From assembly GCA_020629575.1 (NCBI GenBank), contig JAHDDB010000001.1, forward strand, positions 14,598 to 52,832: DNA of 38,235 nucleotides. Direction: 5' to 3'. Of this stretch, positions 15,270-27,465 are shown piece after piece (position 1 is the stretch's first letter; each line of letters opens with the position of its first letter). Source of the stretch: Caedibacter sp. (GTDB taxonomy: Bacteria > Pseudomonadota > Gammaproteobacteria > Francisellales > Francisellaceae). The notes under the pieces are model-generated. The model made no database searches, was not told where the DNA came from, and saw only the letters and a program-made list of their open reading frames with translations. The translations under genes were made by a program, and so were the position numbers.

Positions 15270-15300
15270 GTCATAATGCAGAAATAATAAGTTGAACTTC

Positions 15301-15361
15301 AATCACCCTTCACCCGCGCAGCTTAAGCTACACGAGCAATCCCGCAAGAGGGGAGGTACTA
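15301..15361. repeat. Dispersed intergenic repeat (family B)
   Basis: aatcacccttcacccgcgcagcttaagctacacgagcaatcccgcaagaggggaggtact; near match to the reverse complement of 20923-20983. Confidence 0.75.
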
Positions 15362-15402
15362 ATTGATGCAAATTATTCTTTATTCAGTACTAAAAATTCA
15401 AA

Positions 15403-17785: not shown

Positions 17786-18296
17786 TACTAAGTCAATCGA
17801 TAAGCCGGGTTCTGTCGTGGACAGTCATTTCTCTAGGCATTATGTCACCATAATGCTCAAGCAGCCTACCCGGTTGCAGCGCGAGCCACACTATTACAAC
17901 CCTATTTGGCCTTGCTTCAGATGGGGTTTACCATGCCACTTTTGTTACCAAAAGCGCGGTGCGCTCTTACCACACCGTTTCACCCTTACCCATATAACAA
18001 TACAGGCGGTCTATTCTCTGTTGCACTTTCCGTAAGCTTACGCTTCCCAGGCGTTACCTGGCATCTTGCTCTTTGAAGCCCGGACTTTCCTCGTCCTACC
18101 ACTTTTTGTAACTTTGTAAGTTTTCTTTATCAAAACCCTAAACGGCTAAAATTACTGTCACCTAATTCCCCTCTTCACAAGAGGGGTGGCAGCCGTAGGC
18201 TGACGGGGTGTTTATGAAATCATAGTTTTCTCTTAAATGCGCAACTCCAATAAATTACAAAAAGTGGTAGGACGCGACTGTCTGATCAACTTAGTA
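17786..18296 (-). ncRNA. rnpB: RNase P RNA, bacterial class A, with a large P3 insertion
   Basis: Minus strand: CTAAGTTGATCAGACAGTCGC (P1/P2 5' strands), GAGGAAAGTCCGGGCTTC, GCCAGGTAACGCCTGG, GGTAAGGGTGAAACGGTG, CAAGGCCAAATAGGG, GGGTAGGCTGCTTGAG, GACTGTCCACGACAGAACCCGGCTTATCG, ATTGACTTAGTA (P1 3' strand); P1 pairs over 13 bp. Confidence 0.95.
18160..18213. repeat. Dispersed palindromic repeat (family A) inside the rnpB P3 insertion
   Basis: cctaattcccctcttcacaagaggggtggcagccgtaggctgacggggtgttta; nearly identical to the reverse complement of 27342-27397. Confidence 0.85.
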
Positions 18297-18301
18297 GGCA
18301 G

Positions 18302-18478
18302 AATTATATACCCATCACAAACCATTTTACAGAATTTTTTGCTTTGTATTTTGCATGCTTTTGGCAAGTTGAATTTTGATAATAGTCCTAGCTATTACCT
18401 GCAATCCAACTTACTAAAATCTTCACAAACTACTTTACAAGTAAACACCGCAAAATGATTTACGATGGGTATATACTT
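18302..18478. repeat. Imperfect ~177-bp palindrome with 27-bp terminal inverted repeats (23/27)
   Basis: AAAATGGTTTGTGATGGGTATATAATT (minus, 18328-18302) vs AAAATGATTTACGATGGGTATATACTT (plus, 18452-18478); central stem TAATAG/CTATTA at 18380-18397. Confidence 0.75.
18303..18308 (-). promoter_or_regulatory. Putative rnpB -10 box TATAAT
   Basis: Minus strand gatgggtaTATAATtctgcctactaag; the predicted start falls at the P1 5' end. Confidence 0.6.
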
Positions 18479-20922: not shown

Positions 20923-20983
20923 CGTTCACCTCTCTCCTTGCGGGAGAGCTCGTGCAGCTTGTGCTGCGCGGGTGAGGGGTATT
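20923..20983. repeat. Dispersed intergenic repeat (family B), inverted relative to 15301-15361
   Basis: cgttcacctctctccttgcgggagagctcgtgcagcttgtgctgcgcgggtgaggggtatt. Confidence 0.75.
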
Positions 20984-21062
20984 AAAACTCAACTTGAATT
21001 TCTAACAAACTTTAAAGCATCTTTGGCTAAGACTAAATATTCACCCTCAAGTGCTCACCGCA

Positions 21063-27341: not shown

Positions 27342-27465
27342 ATTAAAACACCTCGTCAGCCTACGGCTGCCACCCCTCTTATAAAGAGGGGAATTGGACA
27401 AGGACTGGTATTATTCCTCTCTTTGCAAGAGGGGTGCCAAGCTTGCGAGGCGGGGTGTTGAAATG
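27342..27465. repeat. Composite of two inverted copies of dispersed repeat family A
   Basis: attaaaacacctcgtcagcctacggctgccacccctcttataaagaggggaattgg ... ttcctctctttgcaagaggggtgccaagcttgcgaggcggggtgttg. Confidence 0.85.

Follow-up and report, generated by a model that had tools for sequence, protein, structure and literature searches.

The rnpB gene in the window (the whole 38,235-nucleotide stretch of DNA analysed here) very probably encodes a functional class A RNase P RNA, present in one copy, whose P3 helix tolerates the arrival and turnover of non-autonomous palindromic MITEs at its tip, closed off by a long clamp stem. The genome is that of a further species of the marine genus Cysteiniphilum (Fastidiosibacteraceae; Gammaproteobacteria), represented by a draft assembly of 2.16 Mb in 206 contigs that is 96% complete and contains many short repeats. 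As read from six rnpB sequences, the gene is one that in this genus repeatedly gains and loses foreign DNA at a single spot in P3, while the core stays nearly constant.

A complete class A RNase P RNA gene spans the insert

The gene lies on the minus strand at positions 17786–18296 and measures ~511 nt with its insert. It matched the Rfam model RNaseP_bact_a (RF00010) with 296.2 bits (E 4e-96; cut-off 100), and no second copy was found in the 2.16-Mb draft. P1 consists of 13 bp, two of them G-U, as read from the sequence; its 5′ strand, TACTAAGTTGATC (18284–18296, minus strand), pairs with the 3′ strand, GATTGACTTAGTA (17786–17798, minus strand), and both strands are present in the minimum free energy (MFE) fold. 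P2 comprises 7 bp between GACAGTC (18276–18282, minus strand), which is conserved in the genus, and GACTGTC (17820–17826); MFE folding draws this helix incompletely. Closure of P1 and P2 requires the full 511 nt, as the original prediction had proposed, and the same two helices occur in the sister species. The catalytic core from P4 to P18, together with the 3′ end (17786–18091, minus strand), is of the standard class A type, with the consensus helices formed from P4 onwards in the Rfam alignment. No match to group I or group II intron families was found in the window at Rfam gathering cut-offs.

A DNA pattern built from P1, P2 and P3 recovered the gene from Cysteiniphilum sp. JM-1, C. halobium, C. 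litorale, C. marinum and a metagenome-assembled genome (MAG) from the Caspian, so that the comparison within the genus covers six genomes including that of the window. Gene order around rnpB is the same in all six: the gene is flanked upstream by a KfrA_N-domain gene and downstream by a RelA/SpoT gene. Alignment of the five sister genes, which the original prediction had suggested as a check, places the true P1 and P2 5′ strands at 18276–18296, followed by P3.

A truncated MITE fills most of the P3 loop

The 143-nt P3 loop belongs largely to a dispersed repeat. Searched against its own genome, it gave 44 matches (itself included) at 80–98% identity, mostly over loop positions 1–108. The repeat, MITE family A, occurs in all six Cysteiniphilum genomes. 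Its full copies are imperfect palindromes of ~177 nt with terminal inverted repeats and the ends CTGGAGTTACGCAC...GTAACTCCAG, and are flanked by target duplications of ~7 nt (TTAGACA, TAACTAA, TTATTAA, TTATTTA, AAATTAA and TAAAAAA). The rnpB copy (18147–18250, minus strand) is the 5′ part of such an element and makes up ~104 nt of the loop. Its left end at 18250, TTGGAGTTGCGCA (family consensus CTGGAGTTACGCAC), is kept, and its right end is deleted from ~18147. The repeated flank is only TTTA/TTTA; the target duplication is partial because the right end is gone. The earlier claim that the P3 loop had been invaded is thus borne out, most of the loop belonging to a MITE that recurs dozens of times in this genome.

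The rest of the loop (18112–18146, minus strand) contains TTTAGGG, which resembles the C. halobium loop GTAATTTAGGGTTT, and CAAAGTTAC, which is also present in JM-1. Likewise, TTTAGGGTTTT, the sequence that follows the MITE A copy, resembles the same C. halobium loop. On the evidence of these alignments, the likeness of the flanks is consistent with insertion of MITE A at TTTA in a pre-existing loop. Further MITE copies lie in intergenic gaps of the window, at 15282–15371 (family B), 20928–20995 (family B) and 27346–27395 (family A).

The P3 stem is conserved by pairing and predates the insert

The loop is closed by a perfect inverted repeat of 20 bp with 143 nt between its arms, exactly to the base as originally described. 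The 5′ arm is CGTCCTACCACTTTTTGTAA (18255–18274, minus strand) and the 3′ arm TTACAAAAAGTGGTAGGACG (18092–18111, minus strand); both emerged from the inverted-repeat search and the MFE fold and show covariation across five species. The arms can be extended to 23 nt at 96% identity in the repeat search, or to 23 bp with one G-U in folding. Among perfect inverted repeats of ≥20 bp with arms ≤400 nt apart, this one is unique in the 38-kb window, where each arm occurs once. Its assignment to P3 was correct; in the sister genes, P3 follows P1 and P2. In five species, 97 of the 98 P3 pair cells hold standard pairs, and two-sided changes were seen at 8 of the 20 pairs, mostly in the MAG lineage. When each full RNA was folded, P1 and the long P3 formed and the insert made a separate domain in all three MITE-bearing species.

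The original prediction had read P3 as a 20-bp stem with an invaded terminal loop, which was right; as a refinement, the stem does not belong to the present insert. Species with different loop sequences have the same stem, and the stem therefore predates the insert. We also considered the arms as terminal repeats of the insert and rejected this, because, among the matches listed, a 188-nt query including both arms matched dispersed copies only between its positions 31 and 156 and never matched the arms outside rnpB.

P3 turnover among Cysteiniphilum species

The P3 region measures 183 nt in the window, 191 nt in C. halobium, 188 nt in JM-1, 104 nt in the MAG, 71 nt in C. litorale and 24 nt in C. 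marinum. C. halobium and JM-1 share a dispersed palindrome of another family (B) in P3. The original prediction knew of no precedent in P3 of a gammaproteobacterium; the window genome is not unique in this respect, as other Cysteiniphilum species carry other P3 inserts. C. litorale combines this 20-bp stem with a plain 31-nt loop that shows no trace of family B. In the MAG, the loop is unrelated and the stem largely different yet perfectly paired; the MAG insert was considered as a dispersed repeat and discarded, being single copy.

C. marinum retains a P3 of 8 bp, which reads CGTCTTAC-AAAAAGTGGTAGGACG, with the unpaired loop AAAAAGTG. This loop equals a portion of the long stem's 3′ arm, and TTAC is found at both presumed deletion ends. 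Because the loop is leftover 3′ arm, as expected from deletion between TTAC repeats, its sequence identifies it as the deletion scar of a long stem.

Over the core (the stretch from AGGAAAG), the window genome, C. litorale, C. marinum and the MAG differ from JM-1 at 1–3 sites, the window at 3, and C. halobium differs at 16 of 313 aligned positions. The latter species is by far the most divergent, with ~85% identity to all others, and C. litorale is closest to JM-1. Since C. halobium carries family B, this family is probably the older state in P3, although it could also have been transferred between species. The sequence of gains and losses proposed below is drawn from six species, with several tree nodes at 30–77% support and thus poorly resolved.

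A second MITE interrupts the rnpB promoter

Immediately upstream of the gene lies another element, MITE family C (18302–18478, minus strand), a ~170-nt palindrome inserted at a TA target, with the ends TATACCCATC...GATGGGTATA and 52 matches in its own genome. It is absent from the five sister loci. The insertion splits the ancestral −35 box (TTGCCA) from the −10 box TATAAT (18303–18308) and gives the KfrA_N-domain protein encoded upstream a changed C-terminus, ...LSIYPS. A consensus scan found no good sigma-70 site that uses the remaining −10 box; with a MITE in the promoter as well, expression of the window rnpB might therefore be altered. A −10 box lies directly upstream of P1 in all six species, and transcription should thus cover the P1 5′ strand.

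Proposed model and alternative explanations

Based on these comparisons, we propose a plausible history of P3. The helix would first have lengthened in the genus to ~20 bp with a loop. MITE B may have entered early, being still present in C. halobium and JM-1, and may have been lost in other lineages; in the window genome, MITE A would have entered the loop, and the right end of the element would then have been deleted. Acting as a clamp, the long, compensated P3 stem could confine the insert to the far end of a peripheral helix, so that the insert would fold alone while P1, P2, P4 and the core still form. We infer that the RNA is active and that the stem has been selected as an insulator. Contacts of the bacterial RNase P protein with P2/P3 lie near the core (PMC2858038). 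Proximal P3, the expected docking neighbourhood of this protein, keeps its position and is little changed.

A different fate of the RNA, compatible with the MITE origin of the insert, is suggested by analogy with 23S rRNA intervening sequences, which are hairpin-tip inserts closed by a long duplex and variable between close relatives. RNase III might cut the 20–23-bp P3 duplex and remove the MITE loop, leaving pieces of ~40 nt and ~325 nt joined by P1, P2 and the remaining P3 pairs; we give such a two-piece RNA somewhat less than an even chance. In its favour, a large loop closed by a perfect 20-bp duplex at a hairpin tip has the anatomy of an rRNA intervening sequence, ~20 bp are kept in all three MITE-bearing species (with one mismatch in C. 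halobium) as against 8 bp in the species without a loop, and RNase III genes are present in five of the six genomes, namely the five sisters. However, no RNase III above the family cut-off was found in the window draft, which at 96% completeness in 206 contigs may have an assembly gap there. Moreover, because C. litorale keeps a 20-bp stem with a mere 31-nt loop, the stem need not serve excision. The broader proposal, that RNase III excises the P3 MITE inserts, that the ribozyme works naturally in two pieces and that P3 of this genus is a site like those of rRNA intervening sequences, is judged slightly less likely. If the RNA were nicked, it would be, to our knowledge, the first natural two-piece bacterial RNase P RNA.

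Other readings fare worse than an intact RNA with a tolerated insert. That the insertions mark a decaying or silent rnpB, with RNase P activity from another source, is very unlikely: the window copy does carry two MITEs, one of them in the promoter, and one J18/2 base unlike that of its closest sisters (AGAT to AGAG), but the gene is single in the genome, its core is 3 sites from that of JM-1, and other species retain inserted P3 loops alongside conserved cores. The reading of the J18/2 change as a defect was rejected, as L058 and L064, two further species of the family, also have AGAG in their rnpB. It is also most improbable that the RNA starts after the insert and that the upstream P1/P2-like segment is a relic. 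The Infernal alignment with RNaseP_bact_a, proposed with the original prediction, recovered the gene at 296 bits but began at 18115 and there reached model position 1. In that alignment, however, the P3 3′ arm is forced into the P1 slot with several non-standard pairs and no P3 is formed; the insert-free C. marinum uses a normal P1 and P2 of the same sequence, and P1, P2 and the −10 box are conserved across Cysteiniphilum. Comparison with the sister genes thus rules out the 5′ end at 18115, which we judge to be a model artefact because Infernal cannot bridge the insert. An assembly artefact is similarly hard to credit. The 206-contig draft is rich in short repeats, and several element copies lie at contig ends; against this, each of the two insertions is bordered on either side by sequence of the rnpB locus, in the gene order shared with five relatives sequenced separately, long P3 regions also occur in four sister genomes, and repeats of 100–180 nt are short relative to usual paired-read spans.

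Comparison with known systems

The Cysteiniphilum RNA shares with class A RNase P RNAs (RF00010) the core helices, the conserved segments, the single copy and the order of P1, P2 and P3; the difference lies in the 183-nt P3 of the window, compared with roughly 18–32 nt in most of the family. The resemblance to 23S rRNA intervening sequences extends to the hairpin-tip site, the 20–23-bp duplex and the variation among relatives. Those sequences, however, are excised by RNase III, leaving a fragmented rRNA; in Cysteiniphilum, excision is a possibility suggested by the sequence, and C. litorale has kept the stem without a large insert. The MITEs resemble other MITE and REP-type repeats: they are short palindromes, non-coding, present in dozens of copies and bounded by terminal inverted repeats, with target duplications of ~7 nt for family A and TA for family C. 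Unlike the three other A and B copies noted in the window, all intergenic, the rnpB copy falls within the transcribed region of an essential RNA gene.

Short tandemly repeated repetitive (STRR) sequences lie inside cyanobacterial rnpB (Vioque 1997, cited in PMC2858038). As far as that citation describes them, they are similar in that members of a genomic repeat family occupy a peripheral part of the essential rnpB; they are short tandem repeats, whereas the Cysteiniphilum insert belongs to a transposon-like, palindromic family whose full copies have terminal inverted repeats and target duplications, and it lies in P3 of a gammaproteobacterium. CPR bacteria have diverged RNase P RNAs with extended helices (PMC8172020), and these are likewise strongly enlarged and poorly aligned by covariance models. 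There, an extended P15 and missing helices are involved; in Cysteiniphilum, it is P3 and an identified mobile element. Among the open-access papers searched, none was found to describe a mobile element in the P3 helix of an RNase P RNA; this absence is weak evidence, as subscription papers fell mostly outside the search. Repeated invasion, swapping and clearing beside a near-unchanged core mark the outer end of P3 as structurally free. The genus thereby offers a natural series of insertion mutants in an essential single-copy ribozyme and illustrates how transposable elements are taken up by an RNA gene.

Long P3 regions outside the genus

In related genera of the family, P3 mostly measures ~18–32 nt. 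The exception is three Francisella-like species (L065, L068 and L070; genomes G016, G020 and G022), with a P3 of 84–88 nt; two of these begin with CGTCTGACCA, like the P3 arm of the MAG, though the lineages are distant. We surveyed 387 gammaproteobacterial genomes with a pattern that allows about 60–181 nt between P2 and the core. Of 12 matches read one by one, only those in the window genome and in G388 (L129) have a genuine long P3 (>60 nt), a rate that is a lower bound because genes whose P2 or core sequence departs from the pattern are missed. The gammaproteobacterial G388 gene has a 70-nt P3 that forms a 26-bp hairpin, in which the motif TCGGAGTCAATT looks REP-like; the hairpin was rejected as a dispersed repeat, as it is single copy, with no second locus. 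The other matches were set aside as a chance upstream CARTCGC or, in L127, an internal duplication. The rnpB gene of L127 (G232) contains an internal direct duplication of ATGGAGGAAAGTCCGGGCTCCACAGGGCAAGGTGCCAGGTA, of which only the second copy runs on into the core. Enlarged hairpins were also seen in the P12 region of rnpB in L135 (G131) and L124 (G105), that of L135 being a long palindrome.
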